Source: Methylicorpusculum sp. (lineage in GTDB: Bacteria > Pseudomonadota > Gammaproteobacteria > Methylococcales > Methylomonadaceae). From it: a DNA stretch of 64,000 bases. Shown one piece after another: positions 1 to 41,367 of this stretch. Position numbers and translations under genes: made by a program. Under the pieces are notes generated by a model. That model saw only the letters and a program-made list of their open reading frames with translations, ran no database searches and had not been told where the DNA came from. Location: the NCBI RefSeq assembly GCF_030651835.1, contig NZ_JAUSBX010000045.1:1-64000 (forward strand). The letters run 5' to 3'. Every line of letters begins with the position of its first letter. Position 1 is the stretch's first letter.

Positions 1-1
1 G

Positions 2-118
2 CGGACTTTTTTTGAACATCTTCGCGCTTTAATGCAGTATCTTCCATTCGATGACTGGGATCATTTGATGCGGTTTATGCTGAAAGGACTCAACGGCACA
101 ATTCCTGACTCCGGGTAG
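2..118 (+). CDS. 3' end of an unidentified protein-coding gene
   Basis: Frame 2 is open from the window edge to a TAG at 116-118 and gives 38 residues ending in ...LKGLNGTIPDSG. The residue mix (FFEHLRALMQYLPFDDWDHL, amphipathic helix-like) looks like genuine coding sequence rather than random translation, but it is too short to assign a family. The gene starts upstream of the window. It is convergent with the zinc-ribbon gene that ends at 208. Confidence 0.45.
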   Translation, partial: RTFFEHLRALMQYLPFDDWDHLMRFMLKGLNGTIPDSG

Positions 119-125
119 GGTTTTA

Positions 126-178
126 AAATGAGAATTGCTGAGTTCTAACCGGTAACTCTCATTTTGAGAAGAAAAAGG
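126..178. repeat. possible degenerate ends of the CAGCAATTCTCA mobile element
   Basis: AATGAGAATTGCTG at 127-140 matches the right terminal repeat of the element family described at 4958-5119. The stretch from about 152 (ACTCTCATTTTGAGAAG) resembles its left end plus the adjacent purine run seen at 41159. No internal part or target duplication is visible, so this is at best a remnant. Confidence 0.3.
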
Positions 179-207
179 CATTGAATTCAAGCCTGCTCAA
201 CTGTCTT

Positions 208-1395
208 TTAATAACGAATCGGCTGTTCAATAGAATACTGCTGAATGACCATTCCGTTTTCCTGCATTTTTTGCAAGGCGCCGGACTTATCAAGATAATA
301 GTAAATGCCAGCTGCCAGCATCAACGAAGCCAGTACGGCAAAGGTGATCTTCCAGACACTGTAAGGGCGCTCACCCTGAACTTTACCGGACCGGCCATTA
401 ATGACAAAGCGGTAGGATTTATCCTTGTAACGAAACGCCGCCGACCAAACCGGCAGCAAACAATGCTTGTATGTCGTTCTGCTGTGCCGGGTTTCGACAT
501 GATGAATGCGCTGGTGATCGCCGCCGATATCGAAGCAAATGTCGCGGTAAATCTGGTCATCCATGATCTGCCGGGCATGATCAAAGCCCTCAGCCAATTC
601 GACCTGATAATATTCACTGCGAAAGCCGCTCAGATAGTTCTCGTCATAAGGAATTAACGCATACAAATCCCAGGGTTGCAGGGCATCCAGGATTTTGCGG
701 GGCAATGAACTGCTGGCACCGACCAGGACATCATCGAAAAAACGGCGGACCTGCCCGCTGACCGGTGTCCAGCGAATTTTGGGCACTTCCCTCATCTCAG
801 TCACGACCCGATTATTTTTGACTACCTGCACAGGCTGCCTCACGTAATAAACATCACCCCGCTCTCCTGAGTAAGCCGTGACCGTATCGCTGTCGAACGT
901 CCAGTACGGAAGATAGACACCGGTTAATTTGGTGTCACTTCGGGCATATTTTTTTACTGCGTTGGGAGCAAACCAGAGTCCGGCAATCCAGCGTTTAAAT
1001 CGTTGCCGGGCAGCCGGTTCGTCAATACTGAACGGCAACAGCGATTTGGGCTGTATCGGTTTGATTTCTGTAGTCGCCGTGACTATGGGCGTCCCGCAAA
1101 AAGGGCATTCCCCCGCATGTATTTTGGCTTCGAACTGAAACCCTGCCCCGCATTCGTCACAATGGATTGTCGGCACGGCCGCTTCGGCACGGGTTTCTGT
1201 CACCCGTTTAAGCGCTTCTTTGAGATCGTACTCCTCGATAACACCCGTGCGTTGTTCTATTCGATTTTCGGTACCGCAGTACTGACAGATCAACAGGTCA
1301 GTGCCGGGTGCATACTTAATAACTGCGCCGCATTGTTTGCAAGGAAAACGCAGCGTCAATTGTTTGGCATCACGGGGCTTGATAACTGAAGACAT
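208..1395 (-). CDS. YdjG-like double zinc-ribbon membrane protein
   Basis: A 395-residue protein with two four-cysteine zinc ribbons at the N-terminus: Cys19/22/37/40 (CKQC, CQYC) and Cys79/82/97/100 (CDEC, CPFC). A long soluble middle region follows, then one membrane segment at about 348-368 and a short tail. Similar proteins are often labelled primosomal protein N'-like because of the ribbons, but there is no helicase domain. Family knowledge: in Bacillus the zinc-ribbon membrane protein YdjG is needed to place the SPFH protein YdjI at the membrane in a PspA stress module. The preceding gene here is an SPFH protein 9 nt upstream, on the same strand, which supports the same partnership. It ends a leftward operon with SPFH, telA and an xpaC-like gene. 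The function in this organism is inferred. Confidence 0.75.
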   Translation of the reverse strand: MSSVIKPRDAKQLTLRFPCKQCGAVIKYAPGTDLLICQYCGTENRIEQRTGVIEEYDLKEALKRVTETRAEAAVPTIHCDECGAGFQFEAKIHAGECPFCGTPIVTATTEIKPIQPKSLLPFSIDEPAARQRFKRWIAGLWFAPNAVKKYARSDTKLTGVYLPYWTFDSDTVTAYSGERGDVYYVRQPVQVVKNNRVVTEMREVPKIRWTPVSGQVRRFFDDVLVGASSSLPRKILDALQPWDLYALIPYDENYLSGFRSEYYQVELAEGFDHARQIMDDQIYRDICFDIGGDHQRIHHVETRHSRTTYKHCLLPVWSAAFRYKDKSYRFVINGRSGKVQGERPYSVWKITFAVLASLMLAAGIYYYLDKSGALQKMQENGMVIQQYSIEQPIRY

Positions 1396-1404
1396 TTTTG
1401 CCGA

Positions 1405-2502
1405 TTACTTGGGGACAGGGGGAGGAACCTGCGCAAACACGGGGGCCAGCGCTGTGACTTTTTCTGCAGCAGTCCATTCGACCAAATCCTGGCTCCAAAC
1501 CAAGGTTGCACGCGTCACCTCGCCTGTTTTGATTTTCTCCATTAACTCGGGCACAGAAAAAGGACCGCTTTGCTGACCGGCAACCGCGATAAAATACGTG
1601 GCAGCTCCGGGAATGGGGGGAGGAGAACCCGAAGCGGGCGGTTGCGATGCATTTAAGGTCTTCCCCAGATTTTGAGCCATCGCAAACCCCATTCCCATAC
1701 CAATACCTTCCCCGGCACCACCGGACGGATTCTTTGCCGCTGCCGCCAGCGCTTCCGCCGCCTGAAACTGAGTATAACGACCAAGATCGCCGATTATGCC
1801 CATACTGGTTCGCTTATCCAAAGTTGCTTCCACTTCAGGCGGCAAGGAGATGTTTTCCACCATCAGTTGCATCACATCCAGACCGTAGGACTCAAATTCC
1901 GGCTTGATTTTTTGTGTGATGAATTCGCCCAACTCATTGTAATTTGCTGCCAAATCCAGCGCCGGAATACCCGACTCCCCCAGAATATCGGCAAAACGGG
2001 CGACAATCAGATTCCGCAGCTGTTCGGCAATGTCTCCGGTTTGAAAATGTCCGCTGGTACCGACAATTTCCTTGATCAAGGTCAGCGGCTCTTTGATCCT
2101 GAACGTATACGTACCAAAAGCCCGCAAGCGAATCGGGCCAAACTCCTTGTCACGCAACATGACCGGATTTTTGGTTCCCCATTTTAAATCGGCAAATCGG
2201 CGCATGTTAAAGAAATAGACTTCCGCTTTGAAAGGACTGGAAAATCCGTGCGGCCAACTTTCAAGCGTTGTCATGATAGGCATATTTCGAGTTTCCAGGC
2301 GATAAAGGCCGGGCTCAAAGAAATCCGCGATCCGGCCCTCATTAACCAACACCGCTGTTTGCGATTCTCTGACCGTCAGCATGGCGCCGTATTTGATTTC
2401 GTTGCCGTAGCGCTCAAACCGGTAAACCAGTGTGTCACTGGTTGAATCGGTCCATTCAATCACATCGACAAATTCGCCAAACAGTTTATTAAAAATACTC
2501 AC
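1405..2502 (-). CDS. SPFH (virion-core/YdjI-type) protein with C-terminal GYF_2 domain
   Basis: 365 residues. The first ~220 residues are an SPFH/band-7-like region of the YdjI type (DVIEWTDSTSDTLVYRFERY near the N-terminus), with no clear transmembrane segment. A Gly/Ala/Met-rich linker (GGAGEGIGMGMGFAMAQNLG) and a Pro-rich spacer lead to a GYF_2-like domain at about 302-350 (GPFSVPELMEKI...LVWSQDLVEW). SPFH proteins form membrane-associated scaffolds; GYF_2 modules usually bind proline-rich peptides. Partner candidates are the zinc-ribbon membrane protein immediately downstream and TelA upstream. An 85-bp mobile element lies in the gap to telA. Membrane-stress or envelope-integrity function is inferred from the family. 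Confidence 0.8.
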   Translation of the reverse strand: MSIFNKLFGEFVDVIEWTDSTSDTLVYRFERYGNEIKYGAMLTVRESQTAVLVNEGRIADFFEPGLYRLETRNMPIMTTLESWPHGFSSPFKAEVYFFNMRRFADLKWGTKNPVMLRDKEFGPIRLRAFGTYTFRIKEPLTLIKEIVGTSGHFQTGDIAEQLRNLIVARFADILGESGIPALDLAANYNELGEFITQKIKPEFESYGLDVMQLMVENISLPPEVEATLDKRTSMGIIGDLGRYTQFQAAEALAAAAKNPSGGAGEGIGMGMGFAMAQNLGKTLNASQPPASGSPPPIPGAATYFIAVAGQQSGPFSVPELMEKIKTGEVTRATLVWSQDLVEWTAAEKVTALAPVFAQVPPPVPK

Positions 2503-2569
2503 AGGGTCTCCTCTGTTTCATGTCAGACACTTTTAAGCCAAGGGCCGATTCAAAAAAACCGGATCTTAT

Positions 2570-2654
2570 CAGCCATTCCCAGTCTAAACTTTTAATGCTG
2601 CTTTGAGGATTGGCGTATGCCTCCCCGTTTTTATCGTCAAACTGGGAATTCCTG
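2570..2654. repeat. MITE-like element, short copy (85 bp) with 9-bp target duplication
   Basis: The left end CAGCCATTCCCAGTCTAAAC and the right end TCAAACTGGGAATTCCTG form imperfect terminal inverted repeats of the same family as 4958-5119. The flanks are GGATCTTAT (2561-2569) and GGATTTTAT (2655-2663), an 8/9 match that I read as a target-site duplication. The right duplication overlaps the telA stop codon (2660-2662), so the element landed exactly at the end of telA inside the operon. The AACTTTTAATG-type subterminal segment is shared with the copy at 24348-24500. The long internal part present in other copies is missing. Confidence 0.7.
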
Positions 2655-2659
2655 GGATT

Positions 2660-3826
2660 TTATACCTTGGTTGACGGACTGGCTTGAGCCGATGCCAATG
2701 TTTTTCTCAATTCAGCTTCGCACTGCTGCAACTGCACCACGGCTTCGCTTCGCATTTTTTTGCCCAAATCGGCGATTTGCAAACTTTCCTCGATGGTGGC
2801 TATTAAGGCCTGATTAGCCTGCTTGACGGTTTCTATGTCAAAAACGCCGCGTTCAAGCTGTTTACGCGTCTCGGCATTGGCCTGTTTGAGATTTTCGGCG
2901 TTGGCAGCCAACAGATCATTGGTCAAATCGGTTGCCGCCTTAACCGTTTCGGCCGCTTGCGATGATCTGAAAATGGTTACCGCAGTCGCAAGCTGTTGAC
3001 GCCACAACGGTATGGTGTTGACTATCGTCGAATTGATTTTATTGACCAAGCCTTTATCATTTTCCTGCACCAGCCGGATACTGGGCAGGCTTTGCATCGA
3101 TACCTGACGGGTTAAACGCAAATCATGAACACGCCGTTCCAGGTCATCCCTCATGGAGCGCAAATCGCGCAAATTTTGCGAGGCGATCACTTCCTGACTG
3201 CTTTCGGCCAATTTGGCCTGCTCCGGAATGATGAGGTTATCGAGCTCACGCAGTTTCTCTTCACCGGCAGCGATGTAGTCTTCCAGCGAATGAAAATAAT
3301 CGAGATTAGCCTGATACAGTCTGTCCAATGAAGCTATATCGGTTAACAGACTGGTTTTATGCCTTTCCAGTTTGTCAGTAATACTGTCAATTTGTTTGCG
3401 TACGTCTTCATATTGCTGGACAAACTTAACCACCGGCTTGGCCTTGCCGATTAGCTTTGAGAAAAAGCCCTGTTTTTTATTCGGATCAAGGTCGTCTATT
3501 TCAAAGCCGCGAATTGTCGCGACCATTGCATTCAAATCTTCACCGGCCGGGCCGGTATCTTTGTTTTTAACGCCTTCCAGCATTCGGTCCGATACCGTGG
3601 TCAATTGTTCCTGGGCTTTACTGCCGAAAAATAATATCGAGTGTGTATCTTTAATATCGATCTCTTGTAACAGTTGGCTAATTTTTTGCTTTTTTTCACT
3701 AGGAGCCTCCTGAAAAGAAACGATGTCGGCCTGAACACCGGGAACGAGTTCCTGAGTCGGGGGCAGCTGCGTTTCGTCTATTTGCACAGGGGCGCTGGTT
3801 ATTACCTGATCTTGTTGTTCACTCAT
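2660..3826 (-). CDS. telA: TelA-family toxic anion (tellurite) resistance protein
   Basis: 388 residues, highly charged and helical, matching the TelA family (PF05816) in length and character (KQKISQLLQEIDIKDTHSIL; KTSLLTDIASLDRLY; ANAETRKQLERGVFD). There is no signal peptide or membrane segment, so it is probably a cytoplasmic or membrane-peripheral coiled-coil protein. TelA proteins are linked to resistance to tellurite and to envelope-active agents, but the biochemical role is not established. The gene lies between an XpaC-like gene (34 nt upstream) and the SPFH gene, a neighbourhood shared by many bacteria, so it probably acts in one membrane-stress complex. Confidence 0.85.
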   Translation of the reverse strand: MSEQQDQVITSAPVQIDETQLPPTQELVPGVQADIVSFQEAPSEKKQKISQLLQEIDIKDTHSILFFGSKAQEQLTTVSDRMLEGVKNKDTGPAGEDLNAMVATIRGFEIDDLDPNKKQGFFSKLIGKAKPVVKFVQQYEDVRKQIDSITDKLERHKTSLLTDIASLDRLYQANLDYFHSLEDYIAAGEEKLRELDNLIIPEQAKLAESSQEVIASQNLRDLRSMRDDLERRVHDLRLTRQVSMQSLPSIRLVQENDKGLVNKINSTIVNTIPLWRQQLATAVTIFRSSQAAETVKAATDLTNDLLAANAENLKQANAETRKQLERGVFDIETVKQANQALIATIEESLQIADLGKKMRSEAVVQLQQCEAELRKTLASAQASPSTKV

Positions 3827-3860
3827 AGCGGATGATTCTCCATCGATTTATTATGCAACA

Positions 3861-4718
3861 TCACATGATGCCTTCGCGTTTCAGTTGTGCGGTCAGTACT
3901 TCAATTTTCACGTCCAGATCGAACATGTCTTCTTCCAAAAGCTTTTGTTGTTGTTCCTTAAAAGCAGACTCTATAGCTTCCAGCGCCTGCCTGAAGTTTT
4001 GTTCCAGTTCCTGAGAGGCGGATTGTCTATGGGTTTTTGCATAGCCTTCCGTCACTTGCTTGACACTGTCCAGGTAGACATTAAGAAATTTTCTAGCCCG
4101 GCGAATGCCGCGCGGATCGGCTTCCAGCTCCGAGATCACCCCTTCGGCAATTTCGCAAATACTGTCAATTCGTTGATTAAGTTCACTGTTGAGAATTTTA
4201 CGATTGGCTTGTTCAATGGTCTTTATGGTGGCAAATGCACCCGTCAAAGTTTGCCTGATCTCATCACCGGAATAACCATGCGCCTCAGTTAACTGAAAAG
4301 GTTTAGGCCGGTCAAAGCCATAACTCAAATACATGCCCAATAAAGCGCCAACGCCGTAGATCAACGATACGGGCAGGCTTTGCTGCGCGCCTAGTACGGC
4401 CAGCAGACCTGTTGTTAAAGCAACCAGCAGCGCCGCAATTAATTTCAAGGGCCATTTGGTTGCATTCAACCATCTGTTCATCCGCGTAGAGGCTTCGGCC
4501 GCCAGACCTCTGCGTAGCAGCATTGCTGCCAGGCAATAAAGTGCAAACCCGGTTGCATTAACAATGATGGACATCACATGACCTTTTACAAGTCCGATGA
4601 TCACCGCAGGAATAAGAGCCAGCGCTAAAAAATAAAGCAGCAGTCCTCGAGGCGAGTAATGGTGCAAAGTATCTTCGGTAAAACGCTTGGCGAATTTCAA
4701 CGACGGCAGCCTGTCCAT
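3861..4718 (-). CDS. XpaC-like (5-bromo-4-chloroindolyl phosphate hydrolysis) membrane protein
   Basis: 285 residues. Two hydrophobic hairpins (LLLYFLALALIPAVIIGLV and the following helix; then LKLIAALLVALTTGLLAVLG and LIYGVGALLGMYLSYGF) give about four membrane segments in the first half. The second half is a charged helical cytoplasmic region ending in LEEDMFDLDVKIEVLTAQL. XpaC proteins were named for an indolyl-phosphate phenotype; an enzyme activity is not proven, and they co-occur with TelA. Its ATG overlaps the stop codon of the upstream 47-aa gene (TAATG), implying translational coupling. Confidence 0.75.
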   Translation of the reverse strand: MDRLPSLKFAKRFTEDTLHHYSPRGLLLYFLALALIPAVIIGLVKGHVMSIIVNATGFALYCLAAMLLRRGLAAEASTRMNRWLNATKWPLKLIAALLVALTTGLLAVLGAQQSLPVSLIYGVGALLGMYLSYGFDRPKPFQLTEAHGYSGDEIRQTLTGAFATIKTIEQANRKILNSELNQRIDSICEIAEGVISELEADPRGIRRARKFLNVYLDSVKQVTEGYAKTHRQSASQELEQNFRQALEAIESAFKEQQQKLLEEDMFDLDVKIEVLTAQLKREGIM

Positions 4719-4861
4719 TATTTAATTCCCTGTATAAAAAATGAGTGATTTTCGGCAAACGTATCGGCGGACTCGGCCTTGACTATAGACTGACACGTTA
4801 CCAAACCGACAGTGGCCACCAGCAAGATGAAACCAAGCAATTTTCTGAAAAATCCGGACAT
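4718..4861 (-). CDS. 47-residue membrane-anchored micro-protein, first gene of the TelA/SPFH operon
   Basis: The reading frame starts at ATG 4859-4861 and ends in a TAA that shares one base with the ATG of the XpaC-like gene. The product begins MSGFFRKLLGFILLVATVGL, a basic start followed by one hydrophobic helix, then VTC and a short polar tail ending FFIQGIK. LVTC resembles a lipoprotein box but has Thr at -1, which is atypical, so a simple membrane anchor is equally likely. No family recognised. Reality is supported by the tight coupling and the sensible signal-like N-terminus; there is no strong ribosome-binding site. Confidence 0.5.
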   Translation of the reverse strand: MSGFFRKLLGFILLVATVGLVTCQSIVKAESADTFAENHSFFIQGIK

Positions 4862-4908
4862 ATCTTTCTAAACCTCTTTTTTATTCTGAATGATCATTAA
4901 GCGCTGTA

Positions 4909-4945
4909 CTGCATTTACCAGTTAAACCTTTTAATGTGGTTTTGA
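4909..4945. repeat. remnant end of an older copy of the mobile element
   Basis: The sequence from about 4909 (CTGCATTTACCAGTTAAAC) to 4945, including CTTTTAATGTGGTTTTGA, matches the terminal and subterminal segment of the copies at 24348-24500 (reverse complement of its right end) and 2570-2610. It lies outside the complete element at 4958-5119, so the newer copy appears to have inserted next to or within an older degenerate one. Confidence 0.4.
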
Positions 4946-4957
4946 TGGCAGCCTACC

Positions 4958-5119
4958 CAGCAATTCTCAGTTTGATCTTGTCGGCGTCATTTTGGGCTGG
5001 GAAAAGCCTTTTGAGGAACACCGTAAACCCTCCATGGGGGCTTGACAGCAGCATCCCTGCTGCCGACATCCTCAAAAAGCTTCCCCCTGCCCTTTTTTTG
5101 TTCAAATTGAGAATTGCTG
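4958..5119. repeat. MITE-like element (162 bp) with perfect 9-bp target-site duplication
   Basis: The terminal inverted repeats are CAGCAATTCTCAGTTTGATC on the left and the reverse complement of GTTCAAATTGAGAATTGCTG on the right. The flanking 9-mers are identical: CAGCCTACC at 4949-4957 and 5120-5128. Internally there is a perfect hairpin GCAGC-ATCCCT-GCTGC (5048-5063). Relative to the copies at 24348 and 41159 it is inverted. It contains no transposase, so it must have been moved in trans by an enzyme that makes 9-bp duplications. It occupies most of the 589-bp gap between the 47-aa gene and the HD-GYP gene; I see no further gene in that gap. Confidence 0.85.
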
Positions 5120-5450
5120 CAGCCTACCTAGAGCCGTCATCGCTTCAAATGTTAATGCCTACCCTTTTCATCATCAACTGGGGCATTGCGACGCTGCACA
5201 TTTCCTGCTTGACCCTACAAATGTAAATAAATGCCGCTAAAATTAGCGTACCAGAATTCATTCCGTCCTATCTCACAATGACCGTTTTTTTTACTAAAAA
5301 ATCCTTAATGTAGACTCTTCGGCCATTCGAGATAAGACTGACGACCCTTTAATGCCTTGACAAAAGCCTTGTTCAAGGGGGAAAGTGAATTATAAGCAGC
5401 ACTGATGACTTTGAGACTTAGGTACGTGAATTTTTCGTTTGAATCAAGCT

Positions 5451-6593
5451 ATGGAAAAAATAAAAATCATCGAAACTGATTTATTTATCGGCATTCCGCT
5501 GGAATGGGCCGTTTATGATGAAGAAGGGCAGTTACTGCTCGATAAAGGCTATATGCTCAATTCCGAAAAGCAAAAGCAAATACTTTTGACTCAGGGTATT
5601 TTTCGTCTCGATTTTACGGCTCAGACTATTGAAAAACCAAGACCTCCGACTGACGGTAAGTTTTTTAAAGGCACCACACATGATACGCTGAAATTATTAG
5701 GCAAAACACTCAGAGTGTTGTTCGACAAGATTCATGAAAACACGCCTGATGATTATTCAAATCACTTTCTGGATTTAGCAGCCGTCATCCAAAGACTCTG
5801 CCGCACTCAATGCGATGCGGTTCTGGGAACCATATTGCTTGATCAGAGTTTTAATTACTCACATATTCATCCGCTGCTTAGCGCCGTGTTGACGGAGCTA
5901 CTGGGAAAACGAAAACAACTGAATGAAGACAATAGAAGAATTTTTATCGCCGCTGCACTCACCCAAAATATTGGGATGTTGGAACTCCAAAAAAAACTGG
6001 CCAATCAAGCCTCTCCCCTCTCGGACCAGCAACGGGACATAATCAAAGCTCATCCGGAACTGGGCCGAGCTTTGCTACAAAAAGCCGGCATTAACAATGC
6101 GGAATGGTTGAATGCCGTACATAATCACCACGAACGTATTGACGGCAATGGTTATCCGGACGGTTTATCAGGTGATGCAATCCCTGTCGCAGCGCGAATT
6201 TTGTCGCTTACCGATATTTACAGCGCAATGATATTACCTCGGGCCTACCGTGACGGCTTTTATGTAAAAAAAGCTTTGCGCGACATTTTTTTACAGCGGG
6301 GAAGCGCCGTAGATGAATCACTTGCCCATCTTTTGATCAAAGAAATTGGCATTTATCCACCCGGTACTTTCGTTTTATTAGCCAATGGCGAAACCGGTGT
6401 CGTATTAAAAAGAGCGCCTGTTGATACAGAATCGATCCATGTGCTCAGCCTTCTTAATCCTCAGGGTAAGCCTTTCGCAAATCCAAAACAAAGAGTCAGT
6501 GACGAAACCGTAGCTTTTAAAATTATAAAAGCCACTCAACGCCTCAAAAACGTCGCCATCCAACCGGACCGTTTTTGGCCATTATCCCATTAA
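5451..6593 (+). CDS. HD-GYP domain protein with degenerate HD motif
   Basis: 380 residues from ATG 5451 (an in-frame TTG at 5439 is the alternative; neither has a clear ribosome-binding site). The C-terminal half carries the HD-GYP core: AHPELG, then HHERIDGNGYP at about 226-236, then SLTDIYSAM and RAYRDG. HD-GYP proteins normally hydrolyse cyclic di-GMP with a di- or tri-metal centre. Here the eponymous HD of HDxGK is replaced by Gln-Asn (TQNIG, about 171-175), removing two metal ligands, while the other histidines, the last Asp and the GYP motif are intact. It may therefore be a c-di-GMP sensor or a weak enzyme. The N-terminal region (IGIPLEWAVYDEEGQLLLDKG) resembles the start of other HD-GYP proteins. 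It appears monocistronic. Confidence 0.8.
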   Translation: MEKIKIIETDLFIGIPLEWAVYDEEGQLLLDKGYMLNSEKQKQILLTQGIFRLDFTAQTIEKPRPPTDGKFFKGTTHDTLKLLGKTLRVLFDKIHENTPDDYSNHFLDLAAVIQRLCRTQCDAVLGTILLDQSFNYSHIHPLLSAVLTELLGKRKQLNEDNRRIFIAAALTQNIGMLELQKKLANQASPLSDQQRDIIKAHPELGRALLQKAGINNAEWLNAVHNHHERIDGNGYPDGLSGDAIPVAARILSLTDIYSAMILPRAYRDGFYVKKALRDIFLQRGSAVDESLAHLLIKEIGIYPPGTFVLLANGETGVVLKRAPVDTESIHVLSLLNPQGKPFANPKQRVSDETVAFKIIKATQRLKNVAIQPDRFWPLSH

Positions 6594-6752
6594 GAAATCA
6601 CTGCAAAGCACATTACGTGCCTTTTAAAATATTTATCATTTTCTCAGCAGAGACAAATACATAAATAATTGATTATTATAGACATAAATAAAATTTCCAC
6701 GGTTTTTTGTAAAAGTTTGTCAATGCACAGATGAATCTGCTTGTACAGTTTT

Positions 6753-6758
6753 TATAAT
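6753..6758 (+). promoter_or_regulatory. candidate -10 box upstream of the mxaK-like gene
   Basis: A perfect TATAAT lies 49 nt before the mxaK-like ATG in an AT-rich gap. No good -35 hexamer stands 16-18 bp upstream (the bases there read GATGAA), so if it is a promoter it is weak or activator-dependent. Confidence 0.3.
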
Positions 6759-6807
6759 ATGCTTTAATTGACATCAAATTTACCTATCATCTGCTTTTTT
6801 CGCATTA

Positions 6808-7392
6808 ATGCCATCCCTGAACCCTCAAAAAAAGTTAACTCATTACACCTCTTTTCATCCTTTTATTGCCTGGCTGGTTTTTCTAATCTTGGCCGGTTTC
6901 GCGCTAAATGAACTTAACCAGATCAGAACAATATGGCGTTTGAACGATCTGATCGAAAATCCTGAAAAAATCAACTCTTCCGATACGGACCTGCCACCGG
7001 AAGTTCTGTTTGCCAAAGCACGTTATCTGAATGATCAAGGTGACTATCAGGAAGCTTTGCGCCTTTATTTACAAATTGAACATCAGGGAAATGAAAATTT
7101 CCGTTTGAAGGTTCAATACAATATGGGCGTGATCTATCTTCAACAGGCCAGTAAACTCTGGAAATCAAAAGGCGTTTGGGAATACAGCCAGATCAATACC
7201 CTTTTAGATTTAACCGAACAATACCTTAGACAGGTGCTTAACAAACAACCGGATCATTGGCAGGCACGATTTAATCTGGAATATGCTTTACGAATTCGCC
7301 CGCCGGCGAAGGAAGAGGAAAAATCTGACTGGCAAGGCCATAAAAGCAGCGTTCATGCAATCATGCCGGGAATTCCTGAGGGCGGGCCTTGA
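6808..7392 (+). CDS. mxaK: MxaK-like TPR membrane protein
   Basis: 194 residues: an N-terminal membrane anchor (PFIAWLVFLILAGFALNELN, about 18-38) and a periplasmic TPR-like region (AKARYLNDQGDYQEALRLYL; QYNMGVIYLQQASKLW; HWQARFNLEYALRIRPP). Size, topology and the directly following von Willebrand A gene match MxaK of the methanol dehydrogenase clusters, where MxaA/K/L (with C) help insert calcium into the MxaFI enzyme. The stop TGA lies inside the TTGA overlap with the mxaL-like start, so the two are translationally coupled. No mxaF, mxaI or mxaA is nearby, so this could be a split locus or a paralogous pair serving another quinoprotein. The symbol rests on resemblance and context. Confidence 0.65.
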   Translation: MPSLNPQKKLTHYTSFHPFIAWLVFLILAGFALNELNQIRTIWRLNDLIENPEKINSSDTDLPPEVLFAKARYLNDQGDYQEALRLYLQIEHQGNENFRLKVQYNMGVIYLQQASKLWKSKGVWEYSQINTLLDLTEQYLRQVLNKQPDHWQARFNLEYALRIRPPAKEEEKSDWQGHKSSVHAIMPGIPEGGP

Positions 7393-8264
7393 TTTACCGG
7401 GATTTCAGACTTTGGTGCCCGGCCGTTGCCATCGCGCTGTTGATGTGGGCGGCATTGAATCCACAGATCAAAGTGCAGAAAGATACTTACAACTTGATGA
7501 TCGTCATTGACATCACGCAAAGTATGAATGCGCAGGATTATCATGTCGATAACCAGCCTGCCGATCGTTTGTCTTTTGTTAAAGCGGCATTGAAAGAAGT
7601 CCTTGCCGAACTGCCCTGCGACTCTAAAATAGGCTTAGGACTATTTTCGACTAAAAATATATTTTTGCTGTTTGAGCCATTGGAACTTTGCGCTCATTAT
7701 GCAGCAATCGATGAAAGTCTCGCAAAAATTGACTGGCGCATGGCCTGGGCTGCAGACAGCCATATCGCCCGGGGAATCTACACCAGTTTAAGCGACATTC
7801 AAAAACTGGAGTCAAAACCCGGTCTGGTATTTTTTACCGATGGTCAGCAAACGCCAAAATCCGCCAAAGAACCGTTTTTTCAAATGGAAGCAGGGAAAAC
7901 TCCGGGCTTGATCGTTGGCACCGGTAATCTGGAGTCAGTCCCTGTGCCCAGACTGGATAATCAAAACCAACAGATTGGATTCTGGCAAATTTCAGAAGCA
8001 GAAGGCCGCCGACGCGCTAACACCGATATAACCGGAAATTATCTAACCGCGGTTCAGGAACCCTACTTACAGAGATTGGCGGTTATTACCGGATTGTCGT
8101 ATCACCATCTGGAAGACGCGGATAAACTGCTCAGTGCTTTAAAAGCATCCAGCCTCTTACAAAAACAGCCGGTCAATTATCCGTTTGCATGGATGCTGGC
8201 AGCCGTGTCTCTCCTCTTGTTACTTACTCCCTTCGCAGTAAACCGGTTGGCCCAAAAGCCATGA
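7389..8264 (+). CDS. mxaL: MxaL-like von Willebrand factor A domain protein
   Basis: 291 residues from TTG 7389, which overlaps the previous stop by 4 nt. N-terminal membrane helix (about 11-24), a VWA domain with MIDAS motif Asp41-Ile-Thr43-Gln-Ser45 (DITQS, a DxSxS variant with Thr) and the FFTDGQQTP loop, and a second helix near the C-terminus (about 266-285). This anchor-VWA-anchor layout is that of MxaC/MxaL-type proteins, which place a metal-binding VWA domain in the periplasm and take part in calcium insertion into methanol dehydrogenase. ATGA overlap with the next gene extends the operon to a transporter. Confidence 0.7.
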   Translation: MIYRDFRLWCPAVAIALLMWAALNPQIKVQKDTYNLMIVIDITQSMNAQDYHVDNQPADRLSFVKAALKEVLAELPCDSKIGLGLFSTKNIFLLFEPLELCAHYAAIDESLAKIDWRMAWAADSHIARGIYTSLSDIQKLESKPGLVFFTDGQQTPKSAKEPFFQMEAGKTPGLIVGTGNLESVPVPRLDNQNQQIGFWQISEAEGRRRANTDITGNYLTAVQEPYLQRLAVITGLSYHHLEDADKLLSALKASSLLQKQPVNYPFAWMLAAVSLLLLLTPFAVNRLAQKP

Positions 8265-9169
8265 TTTCCCGTTTGGTTAATCTCTTCCCGTTATGGGCGG
8301 CCATTCTGGCTTGTGCCGCTTATTTTTATCCCGGCCTGTTCATTTCCGGCAAGCAGATGATTGTTCCTTTGCTGTCGTTGATTATGTTTACTATGGGGCT
8401 GACCCTGACCTGGAGTCACTTTCAGGACACGCTGAAATATCCCGGCATTATTTTGTTGACCATGGCTATCCAGTTTACCGTGATGCCGCTGCTGGCTTGG
8501 CTGCTGTCCGGATCATTCAGCCTGACGAATGATCAGTCAGCCGGCATGATTCTGGTGGGATGCAGTGCAGGAGGGACTGCATCCAACGTGATCTGCTATC
8601 TGGCCAGAGGTAATGTGGCCCTGTCCATTCTGATGACTTTGTCATCTACAGTGGCTGCTGTTTTTATCACACCACTACTGACACTGGTTTTAATGGACCA
8701 GTCAATCAGCCCACCTTTCTCTGATATGATGAAAAGTCTGATAGAGTTGATCATTATTCCCGTCATGCTGGGCACTATGCTCAATACATTCTTTCAAAAC
8801 CGGATAAGCGCAATTCATCACTTTTTACCGCTGATGGCCAGTCTGGCCATCGTAGCCATCATTGCCGTAATCGTATCGCTCAATCAACAGCAGATCGAAG
8901 ACATGGGATCGACTCTATTGGCTGCAGTCGCACTTCATAATTTGGGCGGTATGCTGGCAGGGTATGCGATTCCATGGCTGCTTCGCTATGACAAACAGAC
9001 GTGCCGGACAGCCAGCATTGAGGTGGGCATGCAAAATTCAGGACTGAGTGTTGCATTGGCTATCACTTATTTTTCCAGCGCAGCTGCACTTCCCGGCGCC
9101 ATCTTCAGTATCTGGCACAACCTGTCAGGTTCGTTTGCCGCCATGATATGGCGAAAATATGACGTTTGA
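8261..9169 (+). CDS. bile acid:sodium symporter (BASS) family transporter
   Basis: 302 residues starting at ATG 8261, which overlaps the mxaL-like stop (ATGA). Upstream in-frame codons lie inside mxaL and are discounted. About nine to ten hydrophobic segments, with the BASS hallmarks SLIMFTMGLTLTW near residue 50 and GCSAGGTASNVICYLARGN near 110, plus GMQNSGLSVALA toward the end. BASS proteins import organic anions with Na+; the bacterial substrates are mostly unknown. Translational coupling to mxaK/L-like genes is curious and might point to a role in one-carbon metabolism, but that is only context. Confidence 0.8.
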   Translation: MISRLVNLFPLWAAILACAAYFYPGLFISGKQMIVPLLSLIMFTMGLTLTWSHFQDTLKYPGIILLTMAIQFTVMPLLAWLLSGSFSLTNDQSAGMILVGCSAGGTASNVICYLARGNVALSILMTLSSTVAAVFITPLLTLVLMDQSISPPFSDMMKSLIELIIIPVMLGTMLNTFFQNRISAIHHFLPLMASLAIVAIIAVIVSLNQQQIEDMGSTLLAAVALHNLGGMLAGYAIPWLLRYDKQTCRTASIEVGMQNSGLSVALAITYFSSAAALPGAIFSIWHNLSGSFAAMIWRKYDV

Positions 9170-41158: not shown

Positions 41159-41322
41159 CAGCAATTCTCAATTTGAAGAGAAAAAAGGGCTGGGGGAAGC
41201 TTTTTGAGGATGTCGGCAGCAGGGATGCAGCTGTCAAGCCCCCATGGAAGGGTTTACGACGTTCCTCAAAAGGCTTTCCCCAGCCCAAAATGAAGCCGAA
41301 AAGATCAAACTGAGAATTGCTG
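41159..41322. repeat. MITE-like element (164 bp)
   Basis: Ends CAGCAATTCTCAATTTGAAG and ATCAAACTGAGAATTGCTG are the family's terminal inverted repeats. The inner arms are also complementary over a long stretch (GGGCTGGGG...CCCCAGCCC; GCTTTTTGAGGA...TCCTCAAAAGGC), so the element can fold into one extended hairpin. The flanking 9-mers (ATTTAATGA, GGGTTTTGG) do not match. It lies 45 nt beyond the stop of the HlyD-type gene that ends the peptide cassette. Confidence 0.8.
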
Positions 41323-41367
41323 GGGTTTTGGCCATAGCTGGCGATTTAAAAAGCTGCGTCAGCGCGT

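Follow-up and report, generated by a model that had tools for sequence, protein, structure and literature searches.

TelA and XpaC are widespread proteins that, to our knowledge, are still without a molecular function. Their genes lie side by side as xpaC-yaaN in Bacillus subtilis, as llmg_1115-telA1 in Lactococcus lactis and as lmo1966-1967 in Listeria, and the first two of these pairs belong to envelope-stress regulons (PMC3498285, PMC3139573, PMC12791056; statements taken from cited papers refer throughout to the parts of these sources that were available). The xpaC-yaaN pair is a core operon of sigma-W (PMC3498285). The XpaC-like and telA1 genes of L. lactis are upregulated in the CesSR response to the overproduction of membrane proteins, and their double deletion partly impairs growth under such an overload (PMC3139573). 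The pspA-ydjGHI operon of B. subtilis is likewise under sigma-W, and the membrane recruitment of YdjI and PspA depends there on both YdjG and YdjH (PMC8581546). The stretch of DNA analysed here (the window) comprises 64,000 nucleotides (nt), positions 1 to 64,000 of contig NZ_JAUSBX010000045.1 of Methylicorpusculum sp. (Gammaproteobacteria, Methylomonadaceae). Near its start it carries a minus-strand operon in which xpaC and telA are followed by the genes for an SPFH-GYF protein and for a zinc-ribbon membrane protein; since xpaC-yaaN and pspA-ydjGHI are both controlled by sigma-W, a single operon joining both modules makes sense. The operon opens with a gene for a membrane micro-protein of 47 amino acids (aa). 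There is nothing unusual about the four larger genes in this setting, and the micro-protein is the new element. Judging from sequence comparisons, we lean, with moderate confidence, towards the operon being an inner-membrane stress-protection assembly in which the micro-protein would be a small single-span subunit of XpaC.

XpaC and TelA are adjacent in the window, as they are in the three described pairs. The window differs from them in the micro-protein that precedes XpaC and in the SPFH-GYF and zinc-ribbon proteins that follow, which the available parts of the sources do not mention for those operons. With the PspA-YdjGHI system of B. subtilis, where such proteins anchor a stress complex, the operon shares an SPFH protein of the Band_7_1 type and a membrane protein that carries two zinc ribbons (PMC8581546, PMC11237479, PMC9239133). 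Meanwhile, the window operon is without PspA or YdjH, and its SPFH protein ends in a GYF_2 domain, whereas the YdjI-type protein of B. subtilis (YdjL in PMC11237479) ends in a zinc ribbon. The initial annotation had compared the two proteins with YdjI and YdjG, which work with PspA. The likeness to YdjI held, as the Band_7_1 model matches both here and in the B. subtilis control genome, and so did the likeness to YdjG, in which a pair of zinc ribbons precedes a further domain and a membrane segment (architecture according to PMC11237479). A PspA partner is doubtful: there is no PspA/IM30 match by Pfam in the operon and none over the cut-off in the genome. As the XpaC model PF10112 matched only L. 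lactis among the 14 control genomes and was silent in B. subtilis, the kinship with XpaC of B. subtilis, and with it the sigma-W connection, is drawn from the shared name of the genes.

The micro-protein gene (4718..4861, minus strand) encodes a single predicted membrane span. Its product is 85% and 80% identical in two congeners. Over codons 1-31, the window and these congeners show 0.00-0.01 nonsynonymous versus 0.22-0.35 synonymous differences per site, and codons 32-47 vary freely. By this comparison, the frame is a real, conserved protein-coding gene and the micro-protein is under strong purifying selection. Conservation of the frame was what the initial annotation had wished to see checked, and it is kept in the congeners with selection acting on codons 1-31. 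An alignment of 33 members from the own family (37 sequences minus the near duplicates L071, L087, and L099 and minus L090, which has lost its 5' end) showed M1, G10, L14, T17, and C23 to be invariant and R6, T22, Q24, and S25 to be nearly so. The residues G10, L14, and T17 share one face of the helix. When kinship between the sequences is ignored, the conservation moment was matched by 297 of 20,000 shuffles in the own family and by 236 of 20,000 after the addition of class members, and the conserved face would fit helix packing. No Pfam or NCBIfam family scored above its cut-off for any of the 33 aligned members, which bears out the earlier statement that the micro-protein belongs to no known family; PADLOC likewise returned nothing over the cut-off for the micro-protein of the window. 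Among the open-licence papers listed, we found no description of the micro-protein or of the XpaC-TelA-SPFH-zinc ribbon cluster, an absence that carries little weight.

The occurrence of the micro-protein was examined together with that of XpaC. Among 151 genomes of the own family, the micro-protein was found in 40, with one match each, and XpaC in 44; all 40 lie within the 44. By coordinates, the micro-protein adjoins XpaC in 39 of these 40 genomes, and in the remaining one (G009) the two are located at the ends of two contigs. The pair is also present at locus L103 of Methylotuvimicrobium buryatense 5G, a genetically tractable member of this family of gammaproteobacterial methanotrophs. As for the four XpaC genomes without a match, the loci L088 and L089 carry the micro-frame on direct inspection, and in G144 XpaC is cut at the contig start. 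In L090, near a contig edge, the 5' part of the micro-frame is lost or replaced; this is the sole candidate for a disrupted frame in close relatives, which the initial annotation had named as evidence that would speak against the gene. Because 11 own-family loci hold the micro-protein without an SPFH gene in the fetched stretch, XpaC and not the SPFH protein is, as far as gene content tells, what the micro-protein accompanies.

The two genes are also closely joined. At their junction (TAATG, 4716..4720, minus strand), read directly from the sequence, the TAA of the micro-frame shares one base with the ATG of xpaC, so that the stop overlaps the start as initially annotated. The distance from the micro-protein stop to the XpaC start ranged from -4 to +44 nt in 35 own-family loci (L089 and L090 were omitted from this count), with overlap or abutment in 25 of them. 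The corresponding range was -11 to +40 nt in 23 class-level loci (14 overlapping or abutting) and -1 to +4 nt in 11 loci from outside the class, all of which overlap or abut.

To follow the micro-protein beyond the family, a profile made from own-family members only was compared with 4,279 short frames in 36 XpaC loci. These comprised 25 class-level loci, taken from all class genomes with PF10112 over the cut-off except the window's own and G010, and 11 of the 15 loci fetched from outside the class (L251-L254, which at first showed no candidate peptide, were left out). The search gave 20 matches below E 0.01, every one of them on the XpaC strand and within 40 nt of the XpaC start, and all 22 matches after iteration likewise lay on that strand next to the start. 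With these 20 matches and the two added by iteration, all adjoining XpaC, a recognisable relative of the micro-protein is present in 22 of the 25 class-level loci. In the same 36 loci, a short hydrophobic frame stands at the start of 25/36 XpaC genes, 0/36 TelA genes, 0/28 SPFH genes, and 3/22 zinc-ribbon genes. Applied to 369 whole genomes of the class, the family profile matched 26, of which 20 are XpaC genomes. On a plasmid of Thiodictyon syntrophicum (L213), the micro-protein and XpaC are found with no TelA in the stretch; the Thiodictyon peptide, also of 47 aa, is annotated solely as hypothetical protein WP_172965400.1.

Outside the class, in genomes that appear to be Alphaproteobacteria, another short membrane peptide occupies the same slot before XpaC. 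Homology between the peptides inside and outside the class was not demonstrable (hhalign probability 4%) and is not claimed here. The survey covered 29 of the 34 genomes passing the PF10112 cut-off, as the remaining five had no locus. With a profile of the outside-class peptides, a peptide was detected next to the start of XpaC in 24/24 loci with a full-length XpaC and in 0/5 loci where XpaC matches its model only from position 150 or later; no match below E 0.05 was seen away from XpaC in the 29 loci. Of the 24 positive loci, 15 had served to build the profile and some of the other nine are closely related to those 15; two of the 24 reach no better than E about 0.02. As the peptide is present in 24/24 full-length cases and 0/5 shortened ones, it accompanies full-length XpaC in the loci examined. 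This includes L254, which holds the micro-protein and XpaC with no TelA in the stretch. Because a small protein directly precedes xpaC in such distant relatives as well, the micro-protein is probably an overlooked working part of the XpaC system.

The XpaC protein of the window (3861..4718, minus strand, 285 aa) matches PF10112 (XpaC/Halogen_Hydrol) at 124.5 bits (cut-off 29.8) over model positions 4-191 of 191. In the AlphaFold2 model (mean predicted local distance difference test score, pLDDT, 71; predicted template modelling score 0.48), helices span residues 27-45 (broken), 48-79, 91-110, and 115-133, followed by 151-281, which would give about four membrane helices and then a cytosolic helical domain. 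A crude hydropathy count suggested 3-7 spans in the other full-length XpaC proteins measured and one in L254, and two hydrophobic spans in each of the three shortened proteins (of five) that were measured. The partner of the peptide would then be the four-span domain of XpaC.

We infer the topology, the contact with XpaC, the link to TelA, and the role in membrane stress as follows. The micro-protein would be a single-span membrane subunit of XpaC whose basic N-terminus is probably cytoplasmic, and it would be translated just before XpaC so that both are made together. Its helix may pack on the membrane domain of XpaC, the cytosolic helical domain of which would engage TelA. The zinc-ribbon membrane protein would serve as the anchor of the SPFH-GYF scaffold, a task that falls to YdjG and YdjH in the case of Bacillus YdjI. 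A broader proposal strikes us as evenly balanced between right and wrong: full-length XpaC in Pseudomonadota may be an obligate two-chain membrane unit with a micro-protein of about 24-70 aa, whose translation leads onto that of XpaC and which matches the membrane domain of XpaC in shape. The slot would then be kept within and beyond the class in spite of the divergence or replacement of the peptide, and would be vacant wherever the front of that domain is missing from XpaC. If the subunit proposed here is real, it is a missing component without a family model that work on XpaC alone has overlooked, and it offers a small handle on the system; its link to full-length XpaC also points to the part of XpaC that merits attention.

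Several observations weigh against these proposals. The four-span XpaC is a weak point, as it is predicted from one moderate model and a crude count of 3-7 spans. The helix-face statistic takes no account of relatedness. Since no homology could be demonstrated between the class peptides and those from outside, the slot may have been filled independently in the two groups. Three of the 25 class-level loci are without a profile member, one of them (L239) reaching only E 0.02; in the other two (L235 and L236, also numbered L176 and L177), a short hydrophobic frame that the profile does not see precedes XpaC and was not counted as a member. Six of the 26 class genomes matched by the family profile, with matches at E 1.6e-4 to 0.004, hold no XpaC match. 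These six weak matches, mostly inside longer or interrupted frames, are probably due to chance. Finally, the sole PspA match in the genome lies outside the operon, in a 219-aa frame (G000:C18:18224-18751), and scores 28 bits against a cut-off of 33.9. The six matches in genomes without XpaC are located in L150 (G188), in L141 (G517), and in four other loci.

The invariance of C23 in all 33 own-family sequences raises the question of whether the micro-protein is instead a small lipoprotein, with residues 1-22 as the signal peptide and C23 as the lipidated first residue. The variable tail after C23 resembles that of small lipoproteins, and two of the 33 members gave a weak sub-threshold match to an NCBIfam lipoprotein model (best E 0.0064; the window protein reaches 17 bits, the cut-off being 50). 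All 33 rows, however, have T or S directly in front of the cysteine, and T is unusual at that place in a lipobox. Moreover, 9 of the 22 class-level profile members have no cysteine at this position, Thiodictyon has W there, and in several proteins no more than 6-8 residues would be left in the mature form, all of which makes a lipoprotein unlikely. We judge it just as improbable that the frame is mainly a leader peptide controlling the translation of xpaC through coupling or nascent-chain regulation, with no role for the finished protein. The frequent overlap or abutment described above (25/35 own-family, 14/23 class-level, and 11/11 further loci) would suit such a leader, but gaps of 9-44 nt separate the genes in 19 of the 58 own-family and class-level loci. 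The amino acid sequence is also conserved in its N-terminal two thirds and free at its C-terminal end, and arrest peptides usually show the reverse pattern.

We consider it very improbable that the frame encodes a minute hydrophobic toxin, or a small protein with no relation to the other genes that is hitchhiking at the start of the operon. Small hydrophobic peptides are common and the six weak profile matches in XpaC-less genomes would fit a hitchhiker, but the micro-protein is single-copy in each family genome and stands beside XpaC whenever both share a contig. It persists across the class, and no match away from XpaC was found below E 0.01 in the 36 loci or below E 0.05 in the 29 loci. Known small proteins that resemble the proposed subunit are AcrZ and WatS1-4 (Methylomonas sp. 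DH-1), which are about 50 aa long, have one span, are linked to stress, and have been suggested to work on a membrane protein of larger size (PMC10355033). The WatS1-4 proteins form a set of homologous copies, controlled by WatR and linked to a resistance-nodulation-division (RND) pump, whereas the micro-protein of the window is single-copy and fixed before xpaC. Copy number and location, not sequence, were the grounds on which kinship with WatS was set aside.

The five frames lie on the minus strand at the coordinates initially annotated, and the gene identities given there were supported. TelA (2660..3826, minus strand, 388 aa) matches PF05816 at 384.6 bits (cut-off 30) over model positions 2-331 of 332 and is predicted to be a soluble protein of long helices (AlphaFold2, mean pLDDT 67). 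Foldseek found no match in the PDB at E 0.001 or below for the XpaC and TelA models. VIA-align placed TelA near AhlB (Z 13.7, root-mean-square deviation 3.6, 254 aligned residues) and near BAR domains (Z about 9-11); these likenesses were not used, since according to the warning of the program they possibly reflect a mere common helical-bundle arrangement. A sequence search of solved structures gave no convincing relative for TelA (best E 0.63), XpaC (best E 0.03, a designed coiled coil), or the zinc-ribbon protein (best E 0.13). The YdjI-like SPFH protein (1405..2502, minus strand, 365 aa, GTG start) matches Band_7_1 (PF13421) at 329.2 bits and, at its C-terminus, GYF_2 (PF14237) at 54.7 bits.

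The zinc-ribbon protein (208..1395, minus strand, 395 aa) has a YdjG-like architecture: it starts with two zinc ribbons and ends in a membrane segment, with another domain in between. In YdjG-type proteins, the middle domain is described as having an NTF2-like, YpeB-related fold. Its Pfam zinc-ribbon matches are all under the cut-off; the two CxxC...CxxC units (C18/C21/C37/C40 and C79/C82/C97/C100) and the hydrophobic C-terminal stretch were read in the translation, and the protein is conserved across an alignment of 12 sequences including that of the window. It also gave the single PADLOC match (E 0.0004). An Rfam scan of positions 1-9000 found nothing above the gathering score. A promoter scan returned 12 sites against 6.1 expected, none of them immediately upstream of the micro-frame.

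The neighbourhood survey that the initial annotation had suggested did not show the combination of these genes to be special to this genome. Of 37 own-family loci, 36 have TelA after XpaC and one stops at a contig edge; SPFH is present in 25 of the 37. The class-level loci hold TelA in 25/25, SPFH in 15/25 plus two weak matches, and the zinc ribbon in 12/25, some contigs being too short; for the 11 loci from outside the class, the counts are 11, 11, and 10, respectively. As it recurs at the class level and outside, the combined XpaC-TelA-SPFH-zinc ribbon operon is a usual arrangement well beyond the class. In L251-L253, XpaC is shortened and TelA lies on its opposite flank, with no SPFH or zinc ribbon.

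Some loci showed variations of their own. In L240, from outside the class, a DUF2927 protein with a lipoprotein-like N-terminus (5136-6089) lies between TelA and SPFH. In L084, L098, and L125, the SPFH, zinc-ribbon, or TelA frames seem to be split in two by a frameshift, an insertion, or an assembly error. An NfeD1b-like protein is fused to the cytosolic domain of XpaC in L096 of a related genus (3910-5673), and L097 holds a similar frame; upstream of the L096 fusion stand a short NfeD gene and two Band_7 (SPFH) genes, and this locus gave no micro-protein match. Similar frames of 587-610 aa occur in six genomes of one genus (Pfam was run on L096 only). The position of the NfeD-XpaC fusion beside two SPFH genes ties XpaC to membrane SPFH systems.

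Between the operon of the window and a divergent HD-domain gene lies an element of about 162 bp (4958-5119) that resembles a miniature inverted-repeat transposable element, with terminal inverted repeats whose 18-nt arms are 94% complementary. A second copy is found at 41159-41324 and one end-like motif at 129-140. The element has at least 42 matches in the genome including itself, with 40 of the 226 first-look candidates scored.

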